Below, piece by piece: positions 1,155-59,839 of a stretch of 64,000 nt of DNA. The notes under the pieces were generated by a model that was not told the DNA's origin, did not search any database, and was given only the letters and a program-made list of their open reading frames with translations. Source of the stretch: Thermoanaerobaculia bacterium (GTDB lineage: Bacteria; Acidobacteriota; Thermoanaerobaculia; Multivoradales; J023); contig JAUIJL010000014.1 in NCBI GenBank assembly GCA_030431255.1, forward strand, positions 62,001 to 126,000, read 5' to 3'. Both the position numbers and the translations under genes were made by a program. The first letter of the stretch is position 1. Every line of letters begins with the position of its first letter.

Positions 1155-3283
1155 ACCCCTGGGCCTTCGAAACCTGGTGGGGTGAGGTCGAGCGAATCAC
1201 TTGGAGCCTGTGGCCCTTCGGCATGGGCCGCGACGAGATCCGGCGACGGGAGCGCTGGTTCGCCTTCGTCGACGATCACGAGCTGGCGCGACGGTGGAAC
1301 GACCTGCCCCTGTGGATCTCCCAATCCGCCCACGTCCACGAACGCATGCCCCTGTGGATCCTCGACCACCTGGCGGCCGTCGATGTGCCTTTCGAGGATG
1401 CGGACCGCTACCTCGATTCCGAGCGCCTGCCCTTCGCTGATCCCATCGCCCTACAACTAGCCATCACCTTCGCCGACCCGGTCCGCTTCGCCGAGACCCA
1501 GTTTTTGATGCCCAACGAATACCGGCGCATGACCCGCTATTGGGCGTTTCAGAAGGCATGGATGCGCCTGCAACCGCAGCGGGTCGATCCCGACAGACCG
1601 GAGGACGTGAGCACCCTCAAAGTCATTCAATGCTCCGGTTTCGGCATCGGCAAAACCGTGCGCCTGTGCCATCGCGCCATCTACAAGCTCTTGGTCGAAC
1701 GGGTCGACGCCCTGCTCGGCGCACCCGAAGCCAGCCACGTCTTCACCATGTTCAACATCGTCAAACGCACGGTGGAGAAGAATCGATTCCTCGCCAAGCG
1801 CTGCCCGGAGATCCTCAAATCCGAGGCCGGCTTTCCCGTGGTCCGGACCTCCAAAGACCAAACCCTATATTTCCGCTGGGCCGACGCCGACGGCGACAGC
1901 TTCCGCTCGATCCACCTGGTGGGCGGATACGCCGCCGTCGACGAAGCGGCCAAGCTCAAGGGCGACCTCGACACCCAAACCGAGAACCTCGCCAACTTCG
2001 TCAGCCGTGTGGAAGCCGGTTTAGTGGACGGCAAGCTCCAAGGGGGCGAGCTGCATCTCGCGTCCGTGCCCGACGGTCGGCGCTTCCTATTCTTCAAGCA
2101 CAGCGAAAACGCCGTACCCCTCGACCTGTGGCGGCCGGAGCCCACCTACGGCGAGTGGAATCTCTGGCGCGAGTCCAAAAATCGACAGCCGGCCCCGTGG
2201 AATACTCCGGCCCGGCGCGCCGAGCTGGCCAAGGAATGGGACGGCGAGCACAGCCCCAAATTCCTCCAAAACTGGCACGGCTTACACGGCACGTCCACCG
2301 AGGGCCTGTGGCCGGCCGACGTGCTCCTGCCGTGCCTCGAAGCGGTCGACGGCTACCACGGTGCAACCCTGCGTCTGGAAAACGGCGTGGTGTCGTGGCG
2401 CTCCTATCGGCTCGACCCCCATTACGACCCCCAAGCCGGTCTCAAGAGCGCGGGAATGGGACGGCGGGATTCGTCCCTCCAACCCACCCAAACATTGGCC
2501 GAGGATCGATTCCCCATCGATCCCTTCCTGCCGCGCACGCCCAAGCGCGACACCCCGGAAGACCAGGATAGGCGTTCCGCCCTGTGGCGTGCCTTCCTGG
2601 CCGAGCTCTTCGTGTGCCCCCACGGAGAGCTCGCGGCCGGGGTCGACATCGGCGAAAGCGACCCCACGGAAATCGTCGTCTCGCGCGTGGTCGACGGCAC
2701 GCCGGTGGAAGTCGTCCTAAGGCTCCAGCTCCAAGCCTTTCCCCACGGCATCCAAGCGGACCTGCTCTACGGCCTCGCCGATCTGCTCGGGCCCATCTGG
2801 GGTTGGGGCTTCGACGCCACGGGCGGCCCGGCGCTCCTGACCATGCTCTACCAAGAGCGGATCATCGACGGTCGAAAGGTACGGATCGGTCGGCGCAGCC
2901 TTGACGTCACCGAGGTGGTGATGCACAAAAACCGCGAGCTGTTGCCGGAGATCGAAAGGGAGGGCGAGACCTCAGACAGAGTGACGGTCAGCTCGAAACA
3001 CCTGGCGGTCTGCCTGCTCGACATGGCCATCCGCGGCCGGGCTCTGGCCCTGCCTTGGGACTCGATAGCGCTCAAAGAGCTACCGGCCTTCGGTCGTGAG
3101 CGGCTGCCGTCCGGTGGCTGGAAATACACCAGCACCCACGACCACTTCGTCGCCGCCTTGCTCTGCCTGTTCCTACACGTCCGCCTGGCTCGTGACCTCG
3201 AAGACGACGTGGACGACGAGCCCGAGAGCCTGCCGCGGTCGGAATTCGATGAATCCTTAACGACCTACGGAGAGAGCGCTTGA
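1151..3283 (+). CDS. Phage terminase large subunit
   Basis: This is the DNA-packaging motor that drives genome into proheads and cuts it. The 710-residue length is typical of large terminases. A deviant Walker A, GFGIGKT, sits at about 163-169. A Walker B-like YAAVDEA follows at about 260-266. The RNase H-like nuclease domain starts near 497 with GVDIGESDPTEIVV (first acidic residue), followed by GFDATGG near 552 and a C-terminal DHFVAALL near 670. The gene overlaps its upstream neighbour by ATGA and the portal gene by TTGA, indicating translational coupling. Confidence 0.88.
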   Translation: MNPWAFETWWGEVERITWSLWPFGMGRDEIRRRERWFAFVDDHELARRWNDLPLWISQSAHVHERMPLWILDHLAAVDVPFEDADRYLDSERLPFADPIALQLAITFADPVRFAETQFLMPNEYRRMTRYWAFQKAWMRLQPQRVDPDRPEDVSTLKVIQCSGFGIGKTVRLCHRAIYKLLVERVDALLGAPEASHVFTMFNIVKRTVEKNRFLAKRCPEILKSEAGFPVVRTSKDQTLYFRWADADGDSFRSIHLVGGYAAVDEAAKLKGDLDTQTENLANFVSRVEAGLVDGKLQGGELHLASVPDGRRFLFFKHSENAVPLDLWRPEPTYGEWNLWRESKNRQPAPWNTPARRAELAKEWDGEHSPKFLQNWHGLHGTSTEGLWPADVLLPCLEAVDGYHGATLRLENGVVSWRSYRLDPHYDPQAGLKSAGMGRRDSSLQPTQTLAEDRFPIDPFLPRTPKRDTPEDQDRRSALWRAFLAELFVCPHGELAAGVDIGESDPTEIVVSRVVDGTPVEVVLRLQLQAFPHGIQADLLYGLADLLGPIWGWGFDATGGPALLTMLYQERIIDGRKVRIGRRSLDVTEVVMHKNRELLPEIEREGETSDRVTVSSKHLAVCLLDMAIRGRALALPWDSIALKELPAFGRERLPSGGWKYTSTHDHFVAALLCLFLHVRLARDLEDDVDDEPESLPRSEFDESLTTYGESA

Positions 3284-4710
3284 GGTTGTTGGGCCGACTC
3301 GGTGAGCACCTAGCTGAGTCCTTATTTCGGCGCGGCGTTCCCGCCGTTCCGGAGGTCGTGGCCAAGCTTGACGTGGAATATGCCGCCGAGCGCAATGTGC
3401 GGCTCTATCCCGCGGCATTCCGGGGCGAGGACCCACACCCGTCCAAGATCCTGCAATTTCACAGCCCCGGCGCCTACCGGCTCGGCGAGCTTTACGACGA
3501 CATGGAGACCGACGGACGTCTCTATGCCGAGATGTTGCGCCGGGCGTCCACGGCCGTGGCCCTGCGTCAGTATTTGGAGCCCGGTCAAGGTCCTAAGGCG
3601 GAGCAGGCGGCGGAGCTGTGCCGCTCGGTCTTGCCCACCGCCGACGACAAAGCGGCGACGTGCCTCACCGAGGTGCAGCAGGTCCAAATTCAACAGCTGA
3701 TCGAGCGCACGGGTCGGGGCATTTCGTTCACCGAGGTCATGTGGCATCAGGTGGAGCACGGGCCCAACGCGGGCTATTGGCTGCCCTGCGGTCTCAAAAC
3801 CCGACCCATGGGCCGCTTCGGTTTCGTCAAAGGACGGTTGCACGTTCGGCGGCCCGGCCACGGTCTGAACGGTCTGAAATCGGCGCCGGATTTCAAATTC
3901 CTGATCCTGCGCCACGGCTCCACCGACTCGCCGTGGGGTGTCGGTCTCTACGACAAATTGCATTACCCGTGGTTCCTGCGCAAAGAGGTGCTCAAGTATT
4001 GGGCGCGGGATATCGAGTCCTTCGCCAGCCCGCCCGTCGGGGTCGAGGTTTCGGGCGAGGAAAGCCGACGCGGCGCGACGGGCAAACCGACCCTCAGTCT
4101 GATGGAGAGGGCTCTGGCCGTGGGTCGGGCCTTGGTCACGAGCAAGATTTTCACCTTCCCCAAGAATCTTCGGCCCGAGCTGTTCGAGCGCAAGCGGGGC
4201 GGCGACGCGGCCGGTTTCGCCAGCTTTCTCGGTGAGATGGCCAAAGTCTTCGCCTTGCTCGTCTCCGGTCAGATCGCCCTCTCCGGCCTGCGCGGCAGTG
4301 TGGGCAGCTACGCCGCCGACGAGACCCACGCCAAGGTGGAGAAAACCCGCAGCGTGCTCGACGCCAAAGACCTCGCCGCCGTCTACCAGACCCTCTGCAA
4401 TTGGATTACCTGGGTCAACCTGGGCTACGACGTGGAGCCGCCCGCGTTTTGCGTGCATGTCGAGGATTTGGACGACCTCAAGGTCCGGCATGAGGCTCTG
4501 AGGCTGGCCAAAGACTTCGGCCTTCCCACCAGCGAAAAGACGGCCCGCCGCGTCCTCTCCAATCCCCGGCCGCGGGACGGCGAGCCCCTGGCTTGGGGTT
4601 CGGAAGCGGCGACCGATCAAACCCCTGACCCCGAAACCGAAACCGACTACCTCGGACCTGACGACATTGAACCTGAAAACCTCGAACCCGCCGGAGACCT
4701 AGCCGCATGA
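3280..4710 (+). CDS. Phage portal protein, DUF935 (Mu gp29-like)
   Basis: The portal ring docks the terminase and the tail at one capsid vertex. The 476-residue protein follows the terminase and looks like the DUF935 portal family: a long N-terminal region, a central FVKGRLHVRRPGHGLNG / WGVGLYDKLHYPWFLRKEVLKYWA segment and a C-terminal acidic tail. The TTG start overlaps the terminase stop (TTGA), and the 3' end overlaps the next ATG. The C-terminal EPETETDYLGPDDIEPE stretch is very acidic. Confidence 0.8.
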   Translation: MRLLGRLGEHLAESLFRRGVPAVPEVVAKLDVEYAAERNVRLYPAAFRGEDPHPSKILQFHSPGAYRLGELYDDMETDGRLYAEMLRRASTAVALRQYLEPGQGPKAEQAAELCRSVLPTADDKAATCLTEVQQVQIQQLIERTGRGISFTEVMWHQVEHGPNAGYWLPCGLKTRPMGRFGFVKGRLHVRRPGHGLNGLKSAPDFKFLILRHGSTDSPWGVGLYDKLHYPWFLRKEVLKYWARDIESFASPPVGVEVSGEESRRGATGKPTLSLMERALAVGRALVTSKIFTFPKNLRPELFERKRGGDAAGFASFLGEMAKVFALLVSGQIALSGLRGSVGSYAADETHAKVEKTRSVLDAKDLAAVYQTLCNWITWVNLGYDVEPPAFCVHVEDLDDLKVRHEALRLAKDFGLPTSEKTARRVLSNPRPRDGEPLAWGSEAATDQTPDPETETDYLGPDDIEPENLEPAGDLAA

Positions 4711-6143
4711 AATGGCCCAAGCTTGATCGACCGCTGTCCAGATATCGCCGCTTCGCCGCCGGCTCCTCCGACCCCGATTTGCGGGTCGACCGCACCGGCG
4801 GGCAGTGGGGCTCCGGCCTCATCTACGGCGTGTCCCTCATCACCCGCGGCGAAGCTCTCGGACATCGCCAATGGATTGACGGAATCTTCCTCGATCAGCT
4901 CGTCCGATCCCTCGGCATGGGTCTATTCGTCAAATCCACCTATGGACATCCCGACATGTGCGGCGACGGCATCGGTCAGTACGTGGGACGCATCTACGGA
5001 CCGGCCCAGCGCGACGGCGACCGGGTCCGGGCCGATCTGCACATCAACCCCGCGGCCCACCAACACGGCCACGCCGAGGCCTTATTCCTTATGGCGGAGA
5101 CGGCCCCTGAGGACTTCGGCATGTCGATCAGGTTCACGGGCGACGTAAAGGCTGAGGAAGCGTTCCGCGTCACAAATAGCGAGGACGTCGACGGCCGCCT
5201 GGTCTTCAAATCTCCCGACGCCGACAACGTCCACCACTACAGCCACGCCCGCCTGTTGGAGCTGCACGCCGCCGACCCCGTGCTCGATCCCGCGGCTAAT
5301 CCGTCGGGGCTCTTCTCAGCGCAGAACGCCTACCTAAACGACGCCGAGGCCGCCATGGCCTACGCCCTCGGTTTCTCAGACACCGCCCCCGAAACCTCGG
5401 AGCTTTTCGGCCTAGACGTGGAGCGGGTCCGCTCCTTCGCCGCCCGATTGTCCATCCGCAAAGGGTGGGCCCTGGGCTTCGATCCAACAACCCTCAAGGA
5501 ATCCATGACCGACGACCTAGACGTCGAAACCGACGACCCAACCATCGAGCCAGAGACCGAAACCGCCGAAGCCGAGACCGCCAACGACGAGACCAAGCCA
5601 GAAGGGGAGGGCTCCGTCAAAGATTCTGAGGACTCCGCCCAGGATTCCGCAGACTCCGGCGCCAGCTCCACCGCAGATCTCGACACCAATGCCCCTTCTG
5701 CCCGCGTCCAAGCCGCCCTCAGCACCCGCGTCGCCCCCGGCGAGCGACAAGCCGAAAGCGAGCTTTGCCAACTGCTGAGCGGTGAAGCCCTAGCCCGTCA
5801 GCTCGGCAAATTGGAAGACCGGCCGCCCTTCCATTGGCTCAACGAGGCCGCAGCCTCCGACGTCCAAACCCTGCTTAACCGTTGCCCACTAACCCCGGCC
5901 CAAACCAAAAGCGGACTCACCGCGGCCCTGGTAGAGCTCAAAAAAGCCGAGCTATCCCAAGGTCACTACTGCCCGGCCCCCGTCCCCGTCGACGGCCAGC
6001 CGGTCTCCGCCTACGCCGTCATCACCAAGGCCTTCGAAAACCAACCCCGCCTTCCGATCTTCGACGACACCGGCGCCGACCAAGACACCGACACCGACAC
6101 CCACGACCTACGCCGGAAATACCCCGGCACCTTCAAGGACTGA
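4707..6143 (+). CDS. Prohead maturation protease fused to scaffold-like tail
   Basis: The N-terminal about 200 residues resemble prohead serine proteases: a candidate catalytic His in STYGHPDM near residue 75 and a candidate Ser in FGMSIRF near 137, then LLELHAADPV. Residues about 270-340 are extremely acidic and low complexity (TDDPTIEPETETAEAETAND and DSEDSAQDSADSG), as in scaffolds that fill the prohead and are digested at maturation. The final about 110 residues are mixed helical. Position between portal and capsid fits. Assignment of the catalytic residues is by pattern only. Confidence 0.65.
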   Translation: MKWPKLDRPLSRYRRFAAGSSDPDLRVDRTGGQWGSGLIYGVSLITRGEALGHRQWIDGIFLDQLVRSLGMGLFVKSTYGHPDMCGDGIGQYVGRIYGPAQRDGDRVRADLHINPAAHQHGHAEALFLMAETAPEDFGMSIRFTGDVKAEEAFRVTNSEDVDGRLVFKSPDADNVHHYSHARLLELHAADPVLDPAANPSGLFSAQNAYLNDAEAAMAYALGFSDTAPETSELFGLDVERVRSFAARLSIRKGWALGFDPTTLKESMTDDLDVETDDPTIEPETETAEAETANDETKPEGEGSVKDSEDSAQDSADSGASSTADLDTNAPSARVQAALSTRVAPGERQAESELCQLLSGEALARQLGKLEDRPPFHWLNEAAASDVQTLLNRCPLTPAQTKSGLTAALVELKKAELSQGHYCPAPVPVDGQPVSAYAVITKAFENQPRLPIFDDTGADQDTDTDTHDLRRKYPGTFKD

Positions 6144-6162
6144 TCCCAAAGCAAGGAGCTAA

Positions 6163-6639
6163 ATGCAAACCCGAAACGTCAGCCGACCCGCCCGCGGCGA
6201 ATTCCGACGCCTCACCGTCACCGCCGCCAAGGGCGGGCTTCAATACTTCAACGGCCAAATGCTCGCCACCGATGCGGCCGGCTTGGCCGCGCCACTAGCC
6301 GACGCCGCCGACCTTCGATTCCGCGGCGTAGTGGTCGAGCCGCTCCTACCCGACGACTCCCAGGGTTATAAACGCGGCTTCCATTTGGACAACACCCACG
6401 GCGCCGACGGCATCGTGCGCGGTGATCAGGATTCCAGCGAGCGCATCGTGCGCTCCGACATCGGATTCCGCTACGCCTTCCAATACACCGGCCCGACCCC
6501 TGTACCCGGCAACGACGCCTACGCCGTGGACGATGAAACTTTCACCGTCGATCCAGCCCTTACCACCCATGCCGTCCGCATCGGCCAGGTCGACCGGATC
6601 GGCCCCATGGGCTGGTACTTCCTCGACTTCCTACGTTGA
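6163..6639 (+). CDS. Putative head decoration protein
   Basis: This 158-residue protein lies between the protease and the major capsid gene, where decoration or stabilisation proteins are usually encoded. An AAGGAG sequence precedes its ATG. The sequence is beta-rich (GEFRRLTVTAAKGGLQYFNG; DLRFRGVVVEPLL) without motifs I can name. Function is inferred from position, small size and beta character. Confidence 0.5.
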   Translation: MQTRNVSRPARGEFRRLTVTAAKGGLQYFNGQMLATDAAGLAAPLADAADLRFRGVVVEPLLPDDSQGYKRGFHLDNTHGADGIVRGDQDSSERIVRSDIGFRYAFQYTGPTPVPGNDAYAVDDETFTVDPALTTHAVRIGQVDRIGPMGWYFLDFLR

Positions 6640-6649
6640 AAGGAGCTGA

Positions 6650-7657
6650 GTGGAAACCCTCGATCAGCTGAGAAAAGACGTTCGAGCCCACCGCGAGCTG
6701 ATGCTCTTGGGCTACGACAAAAACGAAGCCATGCTCACCGACGCGGCGGCCATGTTCGCCACCATCGACAACCGGCAGGCGCGCCTGAGCCCCATTCCGG
6801 TGAGCGCTCATTTCCTATTGCCCCAAGGCTTCGCCCTTGAGGACGAGCCCGTGCTCTACGCCAAGATGGATCAATTGGAATGGAGCGTGCCGATCCGGCC
6901 CTACCGAACCACCTTGCCCTTCAACCGCATCAACGTGGGCCGTCCTCAACAGGCGATCCCGCTGGCCAACGCCGTGGCCAAGCTCGGTCCGGCCATGCGT
7001 CGCCTACAGCTCGCCAGCCTGTTCAAGCTCTTTCGCAACCCGGCTGCCGTGTCGATCACCGGCCAGCCGTATTTCGACAAAGCCCACCCACAGCCCGCGG
7101 ATCAAGGCATGTTTTCCAACATCCTCGATCTAGATACCGACGTCACCACCAGCTCCAACACCCAACCCACCGCCGAGGACGCGATCAAGGTCTTGAGGGC
7201 GGCGCGCATTCGCTTTGCGGTCAACCAGCTGTTGGAAGCCGAGGTGGTCAAAGACCTCGACACGCCGTTGACCGTGGTGGCCCTGACTCAAGCCTGGTTC
7301 GAAGCCTTCGACGAAGTGCGCAGCCGGCCGCAAATCGTGCAAGAAGGGCAGCGGCAGGAGAACCCGTTCTACGGCAAATTCAACCTGTTGTGGGATCGCA
7401 AGCACCCCAACACCAACAACTACCGTTTCCTCATCTTCAACGGCGGACCCATGACCCTACAAGCCGGCTCCGACGGTCGACCCGTGGAGGTCCCGACCTT
7501 CCCGGCGGCGTTTCTCGCTTTCGATACGGATCCCGTGCCCGGGGCCGAGGTGGTCACGGGCAACAAGGATCTATTCACCATCTACAACGAAATGATCTTC
7601 GGCGCGAAGCTCGGCCTGCCCCAAGGGGCTCTGGCCGGTTGGCGGAGCGGCGGTTAA
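6650..7657 (+). CDS. Major capsid protein, Mu gpT-like
   Basis: This 335-residue capsid shell protein starts at a GTG with AAAGGAGCTGAG just upstream. Features consistent with the Mu-like major head subunit family are an N-terminal helix, an SITGQPYFDKAHP segment near 138, NPFYGKFNLLWDRKHP near 238 and a C-terminal NEMIFGAKLGLP. It is the expected size and lies after decoration and protease genes. The HK97-type fold is known for the family rather than visible here. Confidence 0.75.
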   Translation: METLDQLRKDVRAHRELMLLGYDKNEAMLTDAAAMFATIDNRQARLSPIPVSAHFLLPQGFALEDEPVLYAKMDQLEWSVPIRPYRTTLPFNRINVGRPQQAIPLANAVAKLGPAMRRLQLASLFKLFRNPAAVSITGQPYFDKAHPQPADQGMFSNILDLDTDVTTSSNTQPTAEDAIKVLRAARIRFAVNQLLEAEVVKDLDTPLTVVALTQAWFEAFDEVRSRPQIVQEGQRQENPFYGKFNLLWDRKHPNTNNYRFLIFNGGPMTLQAGSDGRPVEVPTFPAAFLAFDTDPVPGAEVVTGNKDLFTIYNEMIFGAKLGLPQGALAGWRSGG

Positions 7658-7665
7658 GGAGATTT

Positions 7666-8058
7666 ATGCCGACCAAGGCAGAGAACGCAAAGCAGTCCAC
7701 TTTCTACCGTCTGCGGTGCTCCGACGCCGTGCTTCAAACCTTCCGTCAGCACTCCGTGGCCCTGCAACCGCGGGACGGCGAAGGCAACATCTTGGAAGGT
7801 CCCGCGGGCCGGGTGTTTTGTCGGATCAAGATCACCGACGGGCCGTTTCGGGTCTTCGACGAGCAAGGCCTGAACCCCCAACCGTTCCAGCTGATCCAGG
7901 GACCGTTGCCGCCGGAGATCTCCGCCGCGGTCCGGAGCGGCCGGATTCTCGCCGAGCCCGTGGACGATACGGCCCGGATTGCACAGGCCGATGTCTTCGA
8001 CCCGCAAGCGGCCGCTGAGTCGATGAAACCGGAGCACAGCCAGGAGCACAGGCAATGA
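7666..8058 (+). CDS. Hypothetical head-neck region protein
   Basis: The 130-residue protein starts at ATG 7666 behind an AAGGAG site and overlaps the next gene by ATGA. A longer upstream reading of the same frame overlaps the capsid gene and is not needed. The sequence (FRQHSVALQPRDGEGNILEG; FRVFDEQGLNPQPFQLIQGP) matches no family I recognise. By position between capsid and connector it may be a head-completion or minor structural protein. Confidence 0.6.
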   Translation: MPTKAENAKQSTFYRLRCSDAVLQTFRQHSVALQPRDGEGNILEGPAGRVFCRIKITDGPFRVFDEQGLNPQPFQLIQGPLPPEISAAVRSGRILAEPVDDTARIAQADVFDPQAAAESMKPEHSQEHRQ

Positions 8059-8501
8059 CGGCGCTTCTGGCCACCGCGGCGCAGCTCAAGGCGATGAAGG
8101 GCGAGGATCGTTTGACCCGTGCCTTTCCCGAGCTGGAACCCGCCGAGCTCGACGCCCGGGTCGACGCCGCCCTGCGTAGCGCGTCCGAAGAGGTGGCGGG
8201 TTATCTCGCGTCGCGATACGCGGACCGCTTGCCGACGCTCGACGCCACGACCTGCCCGGCTCCGTTGCGGGATCGGGTCATTGTGCTCGCCTGGTGGTTC
8301 CTGCTGCGGGACGGCTCGGACCTTCAAGCGGAGCCGGCCCACCGGGATTACAAGGACGCGTTGAGCTACCTGCAAGCCTTGCAGAACGGCTCGGCGTCGT
8401 TGATCTTCGAACGCCCCACACCGGTGGACGTCACCACGCCCGAGGTGCTGAGCGCCGATCCGCGGACGGTGCTCCGGGATTTCGTGGGCGTTGCCGGCTG
8501 A
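8055..8501 (+). CDS. DUF1320/gp36-like head-tail connector
   Basis: This 148-residue protein resembles the Mu gp36 family of neck proteins: an N-terminal AAQLKAMKGEDRLTRAFPEL, then DARVDAALRSASEEVAGYLASRYA, an LRDRVIVLAWWFLL helix and YKDALSYLQAL. These all-helical proteins sit at the capsid-tail interface. It overlaps both neighbours (ATGA upstream, TGATG downstream). Confidence 0.72.
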   Translation: MTALLATAAQLKAMKGEDRLTRAFPELEPAELDARVDAALRSASEEVAGYLASRYADRLPTLDATTCPAPLRDRVIVLAWWFLLRDGSDLQAEPAHRDYKDALSYLQALQNGSASLIFERPTPVDVTTPEVLSADPRTVLRDFVGVAG

Positions 8502-25727: not shown

Positions 25728-26126
25728 TCAAGCCATCAGGTCAGGTGTCGAAACTACCCGACGCTTCACCCAATCGGTGAAGGTCTCTCGGTCGATCTGG
25801 CCTGCAGCCAGGCTCAGAACCATACTTTCTTGTTCGTCGACCGAGGCGTCCAACTGAAATCCGTTGAGCATCAGCATTGCCTCAAGAGCGGCGTGCCCAA
25901 TCCGTTTGTTGCCGTCAATAAAGGGATGGTTCTGGACCAGAGAGGAGCCCATTGCAGCGGCCTTCTCGATCAAAGTCGGATAGAGGTCTTGCCCGCCAAA
26001 GGACAGGAGAGGCTGTGCGATTGCAGCTTCCAACGCTCCTTGGTCACGTATTCCGTGACTTCCTCCCGAGGCATCCACCACGAGTCGATGGAGCTCGGTC
26101 ACCTCTTCCAAACTCAGCAAATACAC
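25728..26126 (-). CDS. doc: Doc-like Fic-domain toxin
   Basis: Doc kinases phosphorylate elongation factor EF-Tu and stop translation when their antitoxin is lost (known for the family). The 132-residue length is typical. The motif HPFIDGNKRIGH at 67-78 is the Fic/Doc active-site loop, with His67, Asp71 and Arg75. The N-terminal YLLSLEEVTELHRLVV and GIRDQGALEAAIAQP are characteristic of Doc. The GTG start overlaps the stop of the antitoxin (TAGTG). It probably stabilises the prophage. Confidence 0.88.
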   Translation of the reverse strand: MYLLSLEEVTELHRLVVDASGGSHGIRDQGALEAAIAQPLLSFGGQDLYPTLIEKAAAMGSSLVQNHPFIDGNKRIGHAALEAMLMLNGFQLDASVDEQESMVLSLAAGQIDRETFTDWVKRRVVSTPDLMA

Positions 26127-26317
26127 TAGCTCAAGCGCTTATACAGCTCTGCATTCTTGCTGATGACACGCTCTGCTACGGCTGCGAATTTAGCCTTTCG
26201 ATTCAGGGCTTCCAATAAGACCGTTTTCGCAGCAACTTCGGGACTGACACCGAGCCTTTCGGCTTCAGCATTCAACACGGCTGTATGTTCTTCGTCGATT
26301 CTGATGGCAACTTCCAT
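26126..26317 (-). CDS. Antitoxin partner of Doc
   Basis: The chosen start is ATG 26317, giving 63 residues (MEVAIRIDEEHTAVLNAEAE onward), because a GAGGT ribosome site lies 4 bases upstream; a longer in-frame reading adds a non-homologous basic N-terminus. The N-terminal strand followed by helices fits a ribbon-helix-helix-type DNA-binding antitoxin rather than classic Phd. It precedes and overlaps doc by TAGTG, the coupling expected of an autoregulated pair. The 26,318-26,653 stretch upstream holds their promoter region and no other gene I can support. Confidence 0.7.
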   Translation of the reverse strand: MEVAIRIDEEHTAVLNAEAERLGVSPEVAAKTVLLEALNRKAKFAAVAERVISKNAELYKRLS

Positions 26318-26653
26318 GTTGACCTCATTGCAACCACTCTTGCTGAGCGGCGTTTTTGCGATCCGAAGACTCTGCTTACCGAATCGCGTTGCGGGTGGAT
26401 GGGACTTGAGGTGCTCTGCCCACGTCCTGTAGTTTACTCTAGGACCCACACGATGGAGCTTGCGGTTGCGGATCGAGCGCACGTGGTTAGAAGACCGGCG
26501 GTTGGCCTAAGGGCAAAATGGTACGGTTTTGGTACACCTCGGTTGTCCCTGGGGGTCTTTGAACGGTTTCGAGAGTCTCCGGCACATCAGAGAAAAGCCC
26601 GGAAATACGCTCTTTGACCCCTAGATATACTGAGATCTCTGCCCGCTAGAGAA

Positions 26654-26698
26654 CTTTTAATCCGCGGGTCGTAGGTTCGAGACCTACACGACCCACCA
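26654..26698 (+). tRNA. 3' fragment of tRNA-Lys(TTT), prophage attR
   Basis: The sequence starts at the anticodon loop CTTTTAA and continues TCCGC, a variable GGGTC, a T arm GTAGG-TTCGAGA-CCTAC, acceptor strand ACGACCC and ACCA. Upstream bases cannot pair with TCCGC, and no GGGTCGT acceptor strand precedes it, so only the 3' half is present. Such fragments are created when a phage integrates into the 3' half of a tRNA gene. The intact gene is expected at the unseen left end. Confidence 0.85.
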
Positions 26699-26732
26699 AT
26701 TAAATCGCAGAAAATAAGCCACTTACGGCGCT

Positions 26733-26760
26733 AGGGCGATCCTTCGGGGTCGCCCTTTCT
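26733..26760 (+). terminator. Intrinsic terminator behind the tRNA fragment
   Basis: AGGGCGATCC and GGGTCGCCCT form a 10-bp stem (one G-T wobble) around a TTCG tetraloop, followed by TTTCT. It is probably the original terminator of the tRNA-Lys gene, left on the chromosomal side of attR. Confidence 0.8.
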
Positions 26761-26896
26761 GCGTTTCAGTAAGCACATAGTAAGCAAATGGGAGCGATTC
26801 AAGGCGTAGGTAGTGGGGTGTTGTTCGGTGTGGAGACTGAGCTGCTTAGTAGGGACTGCTAGGGGCTGCTGCGACCAGTAGCGGAGTTTTGACGCC

Positions 26897-27952
26897 TTAC
26901 GCCCTCGATCGCAGCCGTACGCGTAGCTCTGCGGCTGCCATGGCGTTGAGGGAGGAGCGCTTCGCCGATGCCTTCAGAATAGCCAGTGCAAGCGGTGGAG
27001 GCTTCACCGGTATCCGATCGATCAGCTCCAGGATCGTCCGCGTCTCTGCCGCGGCAAGGGCATGCTCGCCGTTCTTGGCCAGCAGGCACATGAGGTCGAT
27101 GCTCGCATCCAATGCATCGTCGGGATACTTCTTCTGGAGCCCCAGAGCAGCGCGACGAAGGATGGAGAGGGCGCGCTCCGGATCGTCGGTTCTGGCCAGG
27201 ATGAGAGCCTCAGCTCTGGATAGCAGCAATCGGGAACGTTGTCCGCGGTAGTAGCCGGAACCTTCGGTTGGAAGAGCTTGGCGGGATTGCGCAATGGCGT
27301 CGCGGATGCGATCCAAGATCGGTAGCTCTACTTTCGGTCCCGCCTCATAGCTGAGCACGTTGGCCGCGTTGACGATGGCGCTGAGCGCGGTGTAGTCGGT
27401 TCTGCCCATGATCCTCGGATCCTGAAGGATCTCAAGGCAGTCCTGGAGCGTTCCCTCAAAATCCCCGGCAATCATGCGAATCCAAGAACGGGCGGCCCGG
27501 ATCGGAGCCTCGCCGGAGCAAAGACTCACGGCTCGATTGATCGACTCCAGTGCCACCTCCAGCTGGTCCAGGCAGACCAGCGTGACAGCCTTCCTTGCCA
27601 GCACATCACCTTGTCCGCTGCGGGTGGTGCCTTCGATCACCTCAGCGCGATTCAGCGTCTCAATCGCCTCGGTCAGCATTCCGTTATAGCGCAGCGCTGA
27701 AGCATAGACCGCCAGGGTCAAGCTCTGAAGGTCGGGATGTGGGTTGTGGATCCGTTTGAGAATCTGCAGCGCTGCTTCGGCCGCGGGTACTGACTGGGCA
27801 GCATCCTCGTGGTTCAGAGCTTCAACTCGCTTCAAGATCTCTTTCAGGGCATCCGCAACCCAATAGTGTTCCAGATACACCATCCGCTCAATATCGGCGG
27901 CATCTGCGCGACGAATTCGCTTTTTTCGGTGAGTGGTCAGGGAGATAGACAC
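26897..27952 (-). CDS. TPR-repeat protein of a peptide/TPR cassette
   Basis: The 351-residue protein is a string of about eight helical TPR-like repeats, for example LTLAVYASALRYNGMLTEAI and GDVLARKAVTLVCLDQLEVALESI. No helix-turn-helix, signal peptide or enzyme domain is visible, so it looks like a peptide- or protein-binding scaffold. GTG at 27952 has no good ribosome site, so the N-terminus is uncertain. Upstream on the same strand lie a 19-residue peptide gene and a hairpin. The C-terminal about 150 residues are matched by a truncated copy at 58.4-58.9 kb (shared ALILARTDDPERA-like and KKYPDDALDASIDLMC-like segments). Confidence 0.7.
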   Translation of the reverse strand: MSISLTTHRKKRIRRADAADIERMVYLEHYWVADALKEILKRVEALNHEDAAQSVPAAEAALQILKRIHNPHPDLQSLTLAVYASALRYNGMLTEAIETLNRAEVIEGTTRSGQGDVLARKAVTLVCLDQLEVALESINRAVSLCSGEAPIRAARSWIRMIAGDFEGTLQDCLEILQDPRIMGRTDYTALSAIVNAANVLSYEAGPKVELPILDRIRDAIAQSRQALPTEGSGYYRGQRSRLLLSRAEALILARTDDPERALSILRRAALGLQKKYPDDALDASIDLMCLLAKNGEHALAAAETRTILELIDRIPVKPPPLALAILKASAKRSSLNAMAAAELRVRLRSRA

Positions 27953-27973
27953 ACTAAAAGCATAGTCGAAATA

Positions 27974-28004
27974 GCGAAGAGATGGCAGCCCGCCATCTCT
28001 TCGC
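27974..28004 (-). terminator. Perfect hairpin between peptide gene and TPR gene
   Basis: GCGAAGAGATGGC and GCCATCTCTTCGC form a perfect 13-bp stem with a 5-nt loop. Only a short TATTT follows in the transcription direction, so it could be a partial terminator letting some transcripts continue into the TPR gene, or a 3' stabiliser of an abundant peptide mRNA. Confidence 0.55.
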
Positions 28005-28010
28005 CCGGCC

Positions 28011-28070
28011 TCATCCGATCGGCGTAAGGCCGCCCATCTGGCCTGATTGCACTTGACTCTTAACGGTCAT
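28011..28070 (-). CDS. 19-residue peptide gene, conserved in the second cassette
   Basis: The ORF encodes MTVKSQVQSGQMGGLTPIG. A GAGGTG ribosome site lies 5 bases before the ATG. An ORF of identical length, MQVKTSATAGLSGTLVPIG, occurs in the matching place of the second cassette at 58362-58421, with 9 of 19 positions identical including the PIG end. Conservation of length, start and C-terminus argues for translation. It could be a signalling peptide, a ligand of the TPR protein or a modified-peptide precursor; none is shown. Confidence 0.6.
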   Translation of the reverse strand: MTVKSQVQSGQMGGLTPIG

Positions 28071-28393
28071 AAGTCACCTCCGCGGTTTGGCGAAGCGGCA
28101 TTGCCTCACCTCCCCTGGAAGATAGTGCGCCGGTTGGTCGGTCGTCTAGCTTCTAAATCGTTCGTACAGCGTTAGTTCAAGAGTCGGGGAAAAATTCAAT
28201 CTTCCCAAAAGGGTGATTTCTATCTCGAATTCGGATGCGAGCTGATAAAGCCGAGCGGCGTCCGATGACGGCGAAACCAGTCTTGACCGACGCATTGGGT
28301 AGACGCCGGCAAAAAATTTGGATCTTTTCCCAGATCGTGGGTTGGGCTCTTCCGCCGGAGGCGAGGTTGGAAGGTTGTTGGCGCCATTCTGGC

Positions 28394-28463
28394 TACACTC
28401 CGCTCACCATCAACACATCGGGAGTCTGTGTTGAAAATCGATTCCGCAGGCTCCCCATTTTTT
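28394..28463 (+). terminator. Short conserved leader ending in an intrinsic terminator
   Basis: A possible -10 (TACACT, 28394-28399) is followed by CACCATCAACACA (28405-28417) and a hairpin GGGAGTCTG/CAGGCTCCC (28420-28455) with an ATTTTTT tract. This lies directly before the start of the downstream CDS. The same CACCATCAACACA followed by a GC-rich hairpin and T6 occurs in the second cassette. The arrangement looks like a transcription attenuator. The rest of 28,071-28,393 shows no supported gene. Confidence 0.55.
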
Positions 28464-28478
28464 GACCCGTGAGCCGCT

Positions 28479-29084
28479 ATGACCGACGTATTCTCCTTGG
28501 CCGACTTTGCCGGCGCTCCCGTGGATCTCGAGCTAGAGCCGGATCATCTCGAATCACTCTTCCGCTCTCTGCTTAGGGCCGAGAATCCTCGGTCGCTTCG
28601 AATCCTCTTCTGGTTGCTCCTTCATGTCGTTCGAGACGATCGTGAGCTCCACGAGGCATTGGTTGAAGAATGGTTGCCGACTGAAGGTGACCTGGCCCAG
28701 CTGCTGGAAGATATCGGTCGAGACGGAACGCAGATCGTCCTGTCGTTCGATCTCCTTACGGGCAGGCTGGAGCGCCTGTGGCAGCTCAGTGACGATGCCG
28801 GACTAACCCATCTCACGAAGTCGTCGGATCCCTGGGAAATGGTGAGTGTCGCCCCCATGGCCGCGCTCTATGCCGAGCGTCAGCTTGACGAGCTGATTGC
28901 GGCGGTGGCGCAGGGACGGCGGTGGAAGGATCCCGCGGAGATTCTGAGTCCGAATGGCGAGCAAGAATTTGACCTCGAAGCCTTGATCGGCCTGGCACAG
29001 GCGCGGATGGTGCGGACAGAGGGCGGGGAAGCGTTGAACCTGGTGGTGCTGCGTCTGATGAATCATGCGGATCGGGTGAATTAG
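28479..29084 (+). CDS. Unknown-family protein, divergent partner of TPR gene
   Basis: The 201-residue acidic helical protein has no family I know. A close paralogue occupies the second cassette (57359-57967), sharing DLAQLLED, MAALYAERQLDELIA, WKDPAE and a C-terminal ADRVN. No signal peptide or membrane segment is present. The gene starts 15 bases after the leader terminator and is itself followed by a strong terminator, so it is a single-gene unit with attenuated transcription. It is divergent from the peptide and TPR genes in both copies, indicating a shared function. Confidence 0.7.
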   Translation: MTDVFSLADFAGAPVDLELEPDHLESLFRSLLRAENPRSLRILFWLLLHVVRDDRELHEALVEEWLPTEGDLAQLLEDIGRDGTQIVLSFDLLTGRLERLWQLSDDAGLTHLTKSSDPWEMVSVAPMAALYAERQLDELIAAVAQGRRWKDPAEILSPNGEQEFDLEALIGLAQARMVRTEGGEALNLVVLRLMNHADRVN

Positions 29085-29152
29085 GTTTTTCTGGGATCAG
29101 CAGGAATCAGACGGAGCTATCAACCCAATCGGGTGTGTTAGCGCACATGGGT

Positions 29153-29196
29153 GGGCGGGGCGTCAGGGCAACTGGCGCTCCGTCCGATTTTTTTTT
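29153..29196 (+). terminator. Intrinsic terminator after the 201-residue gene
   Basis: GGGCGGGGCGTC and GGCGCTCCGTCC pair over 12 positions (three wobbles) with a 9-nt loop, followed by nine Ts. The second cassette has a similar hairpin at the same place. Confidence 0.8.
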
Positions 29197-29304
29197 GCCT
29201 TGTTGCGGCAGATTCAGGTGCTTAGAATCGGCGGCATCTGATCTGTTACAGCAGGGCGCGAGCGCCCTGGTCTTAAGCAGTTCTCTTCTGAGAGGAGACT
29301 CCCC

Positions 29305-57358: not shown

Positions 57359-57967
57359 TCAATTCACCCGATCCGCCACGTTCAAAAGCCGCAGGATCAC
57401 AATATTCAGAGCCTCACTTCCGCTTGTCTTCGCCATTCGAGCGTGAGCTAGAGCCAGAATAGCTTCCAGATCAAACTCCGATTCTCCGGATGGGCTCAGC
57501 ACCTCAGCCGGGTCCTTCCATTGTTTTCCACGAGAAACTGTGGCGATGAGCTCGTCGAGCTGGCGTTCGGCATACAAGGCGGCCATAGGAGCCAGAGAGA
57601 CCGAGGCCCAGGGATCGCCTAACCCGGGTAGGTGCTCGGCACCGATGTCGTCACAAAGCTCCCAGAGCCGTTCAGCGAGACTCTTGAAGTCTCTAAGAGT
57701 CAGTACCGTCTGTGTTCCATCCAAACCAGCATCTTCTAGCAATTGAGCAAGGTCTGATTCACTCGGCATCCAAGCCTCAACTATATCGGCGAGCAGCTCC
57801 GGGTGGCTCTGAAGGGTCCGAAGCATCAGCCAGAACAGAACCCGATACGAGCGCGGATGTTCTGAATGGATCAAAGTCTCCAACAAAAGCTCGAGGTCGC
57901 GAGCCTGAATATCCGCTTCAATACTTCCCGAATCGGTCACAAAGGCGGTCAGTTTTAGATCGGTCAT
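57359..57967 (-). CDS. Cassette-2 paralogue of the 201-residue unknown protein
   Basis: Start ATG 57967 gives 202 residues (MTDLKLTAFVTDSG onward), close to the length of the paralogue at 28479-29084; an extension of 28 residues lies across the leader terminator and is rejected. Shared segments include DLAQLLEDAGLDGTQ, MAALYAERQLDELIA, WKDPAE and the C-terminal ADRVN. The gene is intact even though its TPR partner is truncated. Confidence 0.7.
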   Translation of the reverse strand: MTDLKLTAFVTDSGSIEADIQARDLELLLETLIHSEHPRSYRVLFWLMLRTLQSHPELLADIVEAWMPSESDLAQLLEDAGLDGTQTVLTLRDFKSLAERLWELCDDIGAEHLPGLGDPWASVSLAPMAALYAERQLDELIATVSRGKQWKDPAEVLSPSGESEFDLEAILALAHARMAKTSGSEALNIVILRLLNVADRVN

Positions 57968-57982
57968 CTTTCGCTCGCATCG

Positions 57983-58023
57983 CAAAAAAGGAGGCGGAAG
58001 CCGCCGTCCGCGACGGCTTCCGC
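57983..58023 (-). terminator. Leader terminator of cassette 2
   Basis: Read on the minus strand, GCGGAAGCCG and CGGCTTCCGC arms form a strong stem followed by CTCCTTTTTT. The motif CACCATCAACACA immediately precedes the hairpin, as in cassette 1, supporting a conserved short attenuated leader. Confidence 0.6.
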
Positions 58024-58361
58024 TGTGTTGATGGTGAAGAGAAGCTACCAAGGTGGTCGAAATGCGCCTCAGAAATCGCCGGCCCTGGCAGTGGCGATAC
58101 TGGTCTCATGGGAGCTGGTCACTGAAATCTGTGAATGCCACTGCCAAAGAAGCGGAGGGCCTCGTCGTCCTGGCAGTGGCGCTAAATCCGCTCTTATCAA
58201 GAGTTGCCTTCATTGCGAAGCAACTCAACCGGAATGGCAGTCAGGATTTTGGACAGAATTGGGCTAGATCAGGATCTAGGCGGACTAGACGCACGGCGAC
58301 ATCCTGTCTATCTTCCAATGAGGTGGAGGTAATTCTGCCCCACTGTATTCAGGAGAAGACC

Positions 58362-58421
58362 ATGCAGGTAAAAACCAGCGCTACAGCCGGACTTTCAGGA
58401 ACTCTCGTTCCCATCGGGTAG
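58362..58421 (+). CDS. 19-residue peptide gene of cassette 2
   Basis: The ORF encodes MQVKTSATAGLSGTLVPIG behind AGGAGA. It has the same length and C-terminus as the cassette-1 peptide (9 of 19 identical). It directly precedes the remaining TPR sequence, as in cassette 1. Confidence 0.6.
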   Translation: MQVKTSATAGLSGTLVPIG

Positions 58422-58422
58422 G

Positions 58423-58920
58423 GAAATTCTGAAGGGGTGGCGCCTGTCATCCCTTCGAGTTTTCGAGACAGGGCTCAACGTTGATCCCATCGTTTTTGAG
58501 CAGCTCGAAGCAATCATTGATGAGTACCGCGAGCAGTTTCCGAGCAACGGCTCTAGCTTCTATCGAGTCCAACGCCCAAGACTCATGTTGGCGCGTGCTC
58601 GAGCCTTGATCATGATGCGGACCGGCCGCGCTCGACAGGCGATAGTGCCGTTACAGCGAGCCACCCGCGGCCTCGCCAAGAACTATCCGGATGATGCATT
58701 GGCAGCCACGATGGATTTGGTTTGCGCCTATGCTCAATCTGATCAGTATAGGAAGGCAGCTGCTGCCGTCAAAAAGGCTCCAGACCTCCTAAAACGAGTA
58801 CGTTTTGGGATTCGACCGTTGGCTGACAACGCGTTGAAAGTGGCGATAAAGAAAACAGAGATTCGATACGGTGAGGCTGTTGAGCTGCGGTCCATGCTCC
58901 GTCCGCAGGAAGGCAGCTAG
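58423..58920 (+). pseudogene. N-terminally deleted TPR protein of cassette 2
   Basis: The frame is open from upstream and its translation (FETGLNVDPIVFEQLEAIID; EQFPSNGSSFYRVQRPRLML; NYPDDALAATMDLVCAYAQ) follows the C-terminal about 150 residues of the 26897-27952 product. An ATG at 58585 could start a 111-residue product, but this would lack most of the repeats. The about 200-residue N-terminal part is absent, the deletion joining the remnant to the peptide gene. Confidence 0.7.
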
Positions 58921-59358: not shown

Positions 59359-59441
59359 AGTTTTTCGCTGATCCTTCGACAACGTTACCGGACGATTTCG
59401 AGCTGCCGGACGATCCCCTACCAGAGCCGGTAGAGCTATGA
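59352..59441 (+). pseudogene. 3' fragment of a VapB-like antitoxin
   Basis: The in-frame translation WAEFFADPSTTLPDDFELPD ending in PLPEPVEL resembles the C-terminal neck of VapB antitoxins, and its stop overlaps the VapC start by ATGA. The DNA-binding N-terminus is missing, replaced by the end of the divergent glycosidase-like fragment. Confidence 0.55.
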
Positions 59442-59839
59442 CTTTCCTGCTCGACACAGACATCTGCAGCTTAGCGATGAAGAAGCGATTCCCCCAGCTA
59501 CAGACGAGGCTCGAATCATTCCGCATCGGTGAGCTCAAGGTCTCCGCGGCGACCGAGCACGAGCTGCAGGTCGGTGTATTGAAGAGCGGAAATACTGAGC
59601 GACTCCAGGGAGTTGTTCGCCATTTTCTTTCTCTTGTCGAGGTGCAGGATCTCGATCGATCGGCGGCGAGGAGCGCTGCGATCGTGCGGGCCCACCTTGA
59701 AAAGTCCGGCCAGCCGATCGGCGCCATGGACATGCTCATTGCTGGGCACGCGCTTTCGATTGGCGCAACGCTCGTTACCAACAATGTCCGAGAGTTTGGT
59801 CGGGTCCAAGGTCTGCGGGTCGAAAACTGGGCCGACTAA
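59438..59839 (+). CDS. vapC: VapC-type PIN-domain toxin
   Basis: The 133-residue ribonuclease toxin has the PIN acidic set: LLDTDICS (Asp6), VSAATEHELQVG (Glu40/42), IGAMDMLIAGHA (Asp98) and TNNVREF. Many VapC proteins cut tRNA or rRNA. The toxin appears intact while its antitoxin is truncated. Confidence 0.88.
   Translation: MTFLLDTDICSLAMKKRFPQLQTRLESFRIGELKVSAATEHELQVGVLKSGNTERLQGVVRHFLSLVEVQDLDRSAARSAAIVRAHLEKSGQPIGAMDMLIAGHALSIGATLVTNNVREFGRVQGLRVENWAD

Follow-up and report, generated by a model that had tools for sequence, protein, structure and literature searches.

Two copies of a peptide-TPR cassette

The stretch analysed here (the window) covers 64,000 nucleotides of a Thermoanaerobaculia bacterium and corresponds to bases 62001-126000 of contig 39 in a genome of 10.2 Mb and 54 contigs. 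It holds two copies of a cassette made of a gene for a 19-residue peptide, a gene for a tetratricopeptide repeat (TPR) protein and a gene for a small protein of 201 amino acids (aa) in copy 1. In this copy (26.9-29.2 kb, window coordinates) the 201-aa gene is read rightward and the peptide and TPR genes leftward, as a first-pass annotation of the bare sequence had described; the 201-aa gene does lie between two terminator-like elements, with a hairpin and T tract before it and an inverted repeat and T tract after it. That annotation assigned the same parts to copy 2 (57.36-58.92 kb, inverted). A 202-aa homologue (56% identical) and a peptide sharing 9 of 19 residues, the number annotated, are indeed present there, but the TPR gene is a C-terminal remnant that matches residues 200-349 of the copy 1 protein. 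The finding is larger than first noted: the peptide-TPR pair has a core that is private, a leader of export type that is shared, and an exporter to match.

The genes for the 19-residue peptides are real and under coding selection. Open reading frames (ORFs) of 19 aa with G at position 10 and a P-x-G end amounted to 18 distinct peptides from two genera in the stretches fetched, and no such ORF came up when these stretches were reversed, in a control that preserves base composition and not coding structure. Over all pairs of the 18, one-base codon differences were 739 synonymous and 313 non-synonymous, and differences at codon positions 1, 2 and 3 numbered 1354, 1090 and 1947; the first-pass annotation had proposed this comparison as a check, and the peptide evolves as coding DNA. 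Chance ORFs are ruled out by the synonymous excess and the empty reversed DNA, and a small hydrophobic toxin by the lack of any hydrophobic stretch. Because the 60 nt 3' of the peptide fold better than mononucleotide shuffles in 22 of 25 cases (z below -1.5), the peptide is probably made as its own short transcript.

Within its own genome the 201-aa gene occurs six times (both window copies, L012, L013, L014 and L015), each time close to a peptide gene and to a whole or halved TPR gene. L012 is on the same contig, about 10 kb ahead of the window start. Nine 19-aa ORFs of the form M........G......P.G were found in the stretches read from this genome: L013 and L014 carry two P-x-G peptides each, and L012 carries one plus a second in which A replaces P. 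At L062 a TPR gene and a peptide stand without a 201-aa gene; this pair adjoins, by eye, a class II lanthipeptide-like precursor (5944-6141, end ...SITGGCAWTTPATSCVPPGTYCP) and a long ORF (6084-8501).

A shared leader and a private core

Searches with six peptides in the seven genomes of the family (E up to 10) separated two halves of the sequence. Residues 1-10 form a leader, MxVKTxVxAG, that is common to many other short peptides, and residues 11-19 form a core, xx[GP]xxxPxG. The weaker matches, which were read in part, are alike in residues 1-10 only: behind a ribosome site they carry M-x-[VI]-[KQ]-[TS]-x-[VIL]-x-[AS]-G, and they have C-termini such as FDLEDY, FPWID and NGDSGGPLT. A TPR ORF lies within 1 kb of 25 of the 27 P-x-G 19-mers compared with 3 of the 42 other leader peptides, where the 27 include one without leader (L031) and several loci fetched through their TPR match. 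Independently of TPR searches, 15 of 17 non-seed P-x-G peptides from peptide searches, as read, have a TPR ORF (that of L261 is weak); L377 and L378 supplied two further P-x-G peptides. The core also ends ORFs that lack the usual leader (L117, L120, L121, L125 and L031), a point in favour of the signalling unit proposed below.

Among 26 aligned peptides the leader ends in AG in 17 and SG in 9 at the presumed cut site, the -4 residue is hydrophobic (V, I, L, F or A) in all 26, P-x-G is kept in all 26 and the core is free of Cys in 25. Position -7 is mostly Q or K, and a ten-residue leader has no positions -12 and -15, so hydrophobic residues at -7, -12 and -15 were not found. By inspection, the first 10 residues show no hydrophobic stretch and no Sec-type signal. 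Eight leader peptides of 20 or more residues had no match in NCBIfam; in Pfam, the one hit for leader peptides of that length was a weak match to trypsin, caused by the letters GDSGGP. A text search of open-licence papers for leader strings found, among the matches listed, only VKAGP, in antimicrobial-peptide papers.

Other leader peptides occur in several settings. Those of L072, L073, L076 and L257 end in NGDSGGPLT or GDSGGPMTGG, which spells the active-site motif of trypsin; one of these peptides gave the weak Pfam match. Leader peptides lie near long FtsX/MacB-type ATP-binding cassette (ABC) permease-like ORFs in L064, L076, L078 (by similarity), L250 and L264 (by eye). L251, L250 and L380 hold tandem arrays of 2-4 distinct leader peptides, each 19 aa long with a final G but no P-x-G, and have no TPR match near.

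Co-occurrence with a C39-peptidase exporter

Leader peptides directly precede genes for HlyD and a C39-peptidase ABC protein in L246 and L252. L247 has the same order, with the C39 domain matched and HlyD putative, and the peptide-exporter distance is 1.3 kb in L384 and about 4.4 kb in L385. We counted one C39 subfamily (E <= 1e-15) and the peptide family (E <= 0.01) across 72 genomes of the order. The exporter is found in 16 genomes and the peptide family in 11: both in 11, exporter only in 5, peptide only in 0 and neither in 56 (Fisher p 1.4e-9, uncorrected for kinship). Genomes and loci are kin, so that this p-value and the Mantel p-values below are optimistic. Reading of the sequence showed leader peptides in two of the five exporter-only genomes, G380 and G427; a weak peptide match in G401 did not hold up when read. 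Within the family of the window's genome, exporter and peptide are both present in G000, G397 and G398 and both missing from G334, G246, G396 and G399. The exporter of the window's genome lies on contig 50 (L291), apart from the cassettes.

When named genomes were searched with the C39 domain, 273 relatives were found, of which 80 were kept; by title they belong to Chloroflexota, Acidobacteriota, Planctomycetota, Gemmatimonadota, Proteobacteria and Myxococcota. At least one leader-motif ORF was found in 36 of the 80 exporter loci, compared with 1 match in a reversed control of 1.03 Mb. The score matrix for leader peptides was trained on peptides found earlier and its counts include training members, from which the 80-locus scan is free except for G-genome records met again, such as L364. 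The motif is repeated several times in L323 and fused to a PFFARFLE-type stretch in L358, and both fit a cleavage signal.

TPR proteins and their co-variation with the peptide core

The copy 1 TPR protein matches Pfam TPR_12 at E 5.2e-5, below Pfam's cut-off. Its relatives in the sister genus pass Pfam TPR cut-offs, and the TPR proteins of the two genera form one family (hhalign probability 98.6, 320 columns). In the window's genome this family is present in copy 1, copy 2 (half), L013 and L015; the L014 protein is distant (27% over the match) and the L012 protein further (15%). The TPR partners in L181 (548 aa) and L194 (541 aa) carry an AraC-type helix-turn-helix (HTH) domain, HTH_18, above Pfam's cut-off. 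In a low-confidence predicted structure, chains of the peptide receptors Rap, NprR and PlcR rank high (best Foldseek E 9.1e-3; VIA Z 10-11.7), tied with unrelated TPR proteins. No match to the TPR protein was found among plasmids and viral contigs.

TPR similarity was taken from the last 300 aa, so that it does not overlap the peptide DNA. Across 20 TPR-peptide pairs, TPR similarity correlates with that of the core at r 0.56 (p 0.0002) and with that of the leader at r 0.23 (p 0.002; difference p 0.002). Restricted to the 14 pairs of the sister genus, the values are 0.57 and 0.30 (difference p 0.026). Overall, such co-variation would be the pattern expected of one shared exporter and private receptors.

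TPR relatives in other families (L087, L090, L092, L098, L099 and L103) have an N-terminal zinc-finger-like HLLxGCxxC stretch, and several genomes gave 21-27 matches where 27 candidates were scored. The zinc-finger-like TPR genes of L092, L098 and L103 have leader peptides upstream that are 19-20 aa long and lack P-x-G; these may represent additional pairs.

Layout in the sister genus and a second arrangement

The first-pass annotation had suggested a search for short ORFs ending in PIG next to homologues of both proteins. In G397 and G398, which belong to another genus of the family, TPR relatives do adjoin 19-residue P-x-G peptides, some of them ending in PIG (L067, L068), but the 201-aa protein has only a weak relative outside its own genome, so that the comparison covers the peptide-TPR pair rather than the exact three-gene set, and the general ending is P-x-G rather than PIG. 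Neither this comparison nor the codon pattern refuted the first-pass reading. The order divergent small gene, peptide, TPR gene is found in L067, L070, L071 and L074, in L068 with a doubtful small ORF, and further in L113 and L119. The sister-genus small protein recurs in L112, L113, L116, L117 and L119 (E <= 3e-13); the A8 model contains the five loci that seeded it, among them the doubtful L068. Kinship between the small proteins of the two genera was rejected (hhalign probability 1.4). In a second, convergent arrangement the peptide lies downstream of the TPR gene (L012, L062, L120, L121, L181, L185, L194 and L377).

The small gene and its upstream region

All six 201-aa genes have the 12-mer CACCATCAACAC, then a hairpin and a T tract, just 5' of the start codon; in copy 2, L014 and L015 the terminator stem is kept with a different sequence. 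For this reason the 201-aa gene probably needs read-through and is likely the output. Genome-wide the 12-mer has 19 sites, 8 of which show such a hairpin and T tract (by eye), 6 of them at 201-aa genes. The other two, on G000 contig 6:43356 (L200) and contig 7:22575 (L201), are away from any 201-aa gene; they could be small RNAs or leaders of a related kind. For the 201-aa leader, an antiterminator stem CAACACA/TGTGTTG was considered and dropped, being plain in only 3 of 6 copies.

The 201-aa protein has a helical predicted structure of low confidence, for which a fold search of the PDB gave nothing. It matched no family in Pfam and NCBIfam (E <= 1), where the copy 2 homologue had three weak sub-threshold ones, and neither protein had a match in PADLOC, PHROGs, phages or viral contigs. 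Across 396 genomes of the phylum it occurs in its own genome only; a collection of genome contigs, which possibly leaves out records of that genome, gave no match. The one weak relative elsewhere is in G398 (L031, E 5e-4). At this locus (3223-5867) it lies near an N-terminally extended TPR protein, and an ORF ending GLGPLIDPNG overlaps its end.

Table 1. Features of the two cassettes, in window coordinates
Feature	Position	Strand	Remark
Copy 1 TPR protein, 351 aa, GTG start	26897..27952	-	presumed intracellular peptide receptor
Copy 1 hairpin between peptide and TPR genes	27974..28004	-	
Copy 1 19-aa peptide gene MTVKSQVQSGQMGGLTPIG	28011..28070	-	MTVKSQVQSG/QMGGLTPIG (leader/presumed mature part)
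Copy 1 promoter-like stretch CTAGACG...CTATCTTCC	28117..28149	-	by eye; common to copy 2, L013, L015
Copy 1 12-mer CACCATCAACAC	28405..28416	+	exact in 6/6 copies of the 201-aa gene
Copy 1 terminator-like hairpin (28420-28455) and T tract, 5' of 201-aa gene	28420..28463	+
Copy 1 201-aa protein, family unassigned	28479..29084	+	presumed output
Inverted repeat (arms 29106-29117, 29177-29188), then T tract, 3' of copy 1 201-aa gene	29106..29196	+
Copy 2 202-aa homologue of the 201-aa protein	57359..57967	-
Copy 2 terminator-like hairpin, 5' of 202-aa gene	57994..58023	-	stem kept, sequence unlike copy 1
Copy 2 12-mer CACCATCAACAC	58025..58036	-
Copy 2 promoter-like stretch CTAGACG...CTATCTTCC	58285..58316	+	by eye, putative
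Copy 2 19-aa peptide gene MQVKTSATAGLSGTLVPIG	58362..58421	+	MQVKTSATAG/LSGTLVPIG
Copy 2 hairpin 3' of peptide	58431..58456	+
Copy 2 TPR gene remnant, C-terminal half only	58456..58920	+	first in-frame ATG 58585

By eye, copy 1 neighbours a Fic/Doc-like ORF with a small partner (25728-26482) and copy 2 a PIN-like ORF (59438-59839). Beside copy 1, positions 26655-26700 look like a tRNA gene reduced to its 3' half and might be a scar of integration; ARAGORN found no tRNA in the window, and an Rfam scan of 26600-29300 gave no match.

A candidate peptide signalling unit

We propose, with a probability of about 0.6, that the cassette is a peptide signalling unit in which an exported nonapeptide is sensed by an intracellular TPR receptor. 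The first-pass annotation had cautiously read it as a peptide-responsive TPR system, and this is the best-supported reading, with binding and signalling predicted from sequence. The 19-residue precursor would be made from a short transcript ending at the hairpin. The leader MxVKTxVxAG would be recognised by a C39-peptidase ABC exporter from another locus of the genome, which would cut after AG or SG, giving a nine-residue peptide (QMGGLTPIG or LSGTLVPIG). This peptide may re-enter the cell and bind to the intracellular TPR protein encoded next to it, which in its bound form would alter expression of the divergent small-protein gene, perhaps at the terminator-bearing leader. Cleavage, export, uptake, binding and the small gene as output are all steps that we infer.

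Several observations weigh against this proposal. The leader has only 10 residues and ends in AG or SG rather than the GG, GA or GS of known C39 substrates, and the leader-less P-x-G cores (L031, L117, L120, L121, L125) would need another export route. A scan of 14 kb around the exporter in the window's genome found no leader peptide, and no P-x-G cassette was seen adjoining an exporter. For the six pairs of this genome alone, the TPR-core correlation (0.34) is below the TPR-leader correlation (0.66) and gives no support to private receptors. Damaged TPR genes are found in copy 2 (truncation) and in L074, L115 and L119 (in-frame stops). Lastly, genomes of f89 and f90 have many TPR relatives and, except for G444, no peptide (E <= 0.01) and no exporter; the wider TPR family therefore has other roles.

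Among the alternatives, the cassette could serve antagonism: the nonapeptide would be exported and act like a bacteriocin, and the TPR and small proteins would regulate it or confer immunity. Such peptides are common cargo of C39 exporters (PMC7018657, PMC6363468; papers are cited here and below from excerpts), the L062 cassette adjoins the lanthipeptide-like precursor, and L012 and L014 carry tandem variant peptides. We nevertheless regard this as unlikely, given a core of nine residues that almost always lacks Cys and always keeps P-x-G, its co-variation with the TPR protein over all pairs, and no modification enzyme noted adjoining the window cassettes.

A shade less probable is a cytoplasmic microprotein that stays inside and binds the TPR protein of the producing cell. 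The sharing of the leader with many non-TPR peptides, and its tie to the exporter, speak against a peptide that never leaves the cell, although the missing Sec-type signal, the leader-less cores and an exporter unlinked to the cassettes in the window's genome would all suit one. That the peptide is a cis-acting, attenuator-like leader ORF of the TPR transcript, with a product that has no role in trans, agrees with the order ORF, hairpin, TPR gene in copy 1, L013, L015 and the sister-genus loci but is very improbable, because in L012, L062, L181, L194 and others the peptide lies behind the TPR gene in convergent orientation and most leader peptides have no TPR gene nearby.

The odds are roughly even that the cassette represents a peptide-pheromone/TPR-receptor class from outside Firmicutes, in which each genome runs about ten channels in parallel, nine-residue x-x-[GP]-x-x-x-P-x-G pheromones leave through a dedicated C39 exporter and the leader MxVKTxVKAG marks a much larger set of micropeptides, unannotated and exported, in Acidobacteriota, Chloroflexota, Planctomycetota, Proteobacteria and Myxococcota. 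The excerpts of PMC10075063 and PMC13220807 present the sensing of peptide signals by TPR receptors inside the cell as a Gram-positive trait. If the proposed reading holds, signalling of this kind would reach another part of the bacterial tree by a different export route, and the leader motif would serve to find and test many more unannotated exported peptides.

Comparison with known systems

RRNPP systems are described in Firmicutes, with a detector for Gram-positive genomes (PMC10075063), and are treated as Gram-positive (PMC13220807); titles and abstract openings listed from the open-licence literature describe no TPR/peptide system outside Firmicutes. Like Rap-Phr, NprR-NprX and PlcR-PapR, the cassette has a small propeptide gene beside a TPR protein of 250-500 aa, a conserved C-terminal peptide part, stand-alone and HTH-TPR receptor forms and multiple paralogous cassettes (PMC10075063). 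Its propeptide of 19 aa lies within the 10-100 aa expected beside a receptor gene, and its receptor of 351 aa within the expected length, the L181 and L194 proteins being longer; the expected secretion by Sec, or by PptAB for SHP-type peptides, was not seen by inspection. Unlike RRNPP systems, it has a leader tied to a C39 exporter, an AraC-type HTH, a third divergent gene and an Acidobacteriota host (PMC10075063). The cassette would thus work like Rap-Phr or NprR, and we do not file it in that family because Sec-type export is not apparent by inspection, the TPR fold matches tie with unrelated TPR proteins and peptide binding is a prediction.

Known C39 leaders end in GG, GA or GS and have conserved residues at -4, -7, -12 and -15 (PMC7018657, PMC6363468). 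The cassette resembles double-glycine peptides and their C39 exporters (peptidase-containing ABC transporters, PCATs) in its short leader, hydrophobic -4 residue, variable core and Peptidase_C39 exporter with HlyD neighbour, and differs in a ten-residue leader that ends in AG or SG and is without -12 and -15 (PMC7018657, PMC6363468). Exporter and peptides co-occur across genomes, with the P-x-G cassettes not adjacent to the exporter. C39 exporters are also common at ATP-grasp loci (PMC8939145). As in graspetides with C39 processing, L358 and L309 fuse a PFFARFLE-type stretch to VKTxVKAG or VKTGIKAG near the exporter, whereas the TPR-linked peptides have no graspetide leader. A link between an Rgg-type peptide-sensing regulator and a C39 exporter is found in the pneumococcal rtg locus (RtgR/RtgS with RtgAB; PMC7018657). 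There, pheromone and exporter cargo are different peptides (PMC7018657); here, the C39-type leader sits on the very peptide that is linked to the TPR gene.

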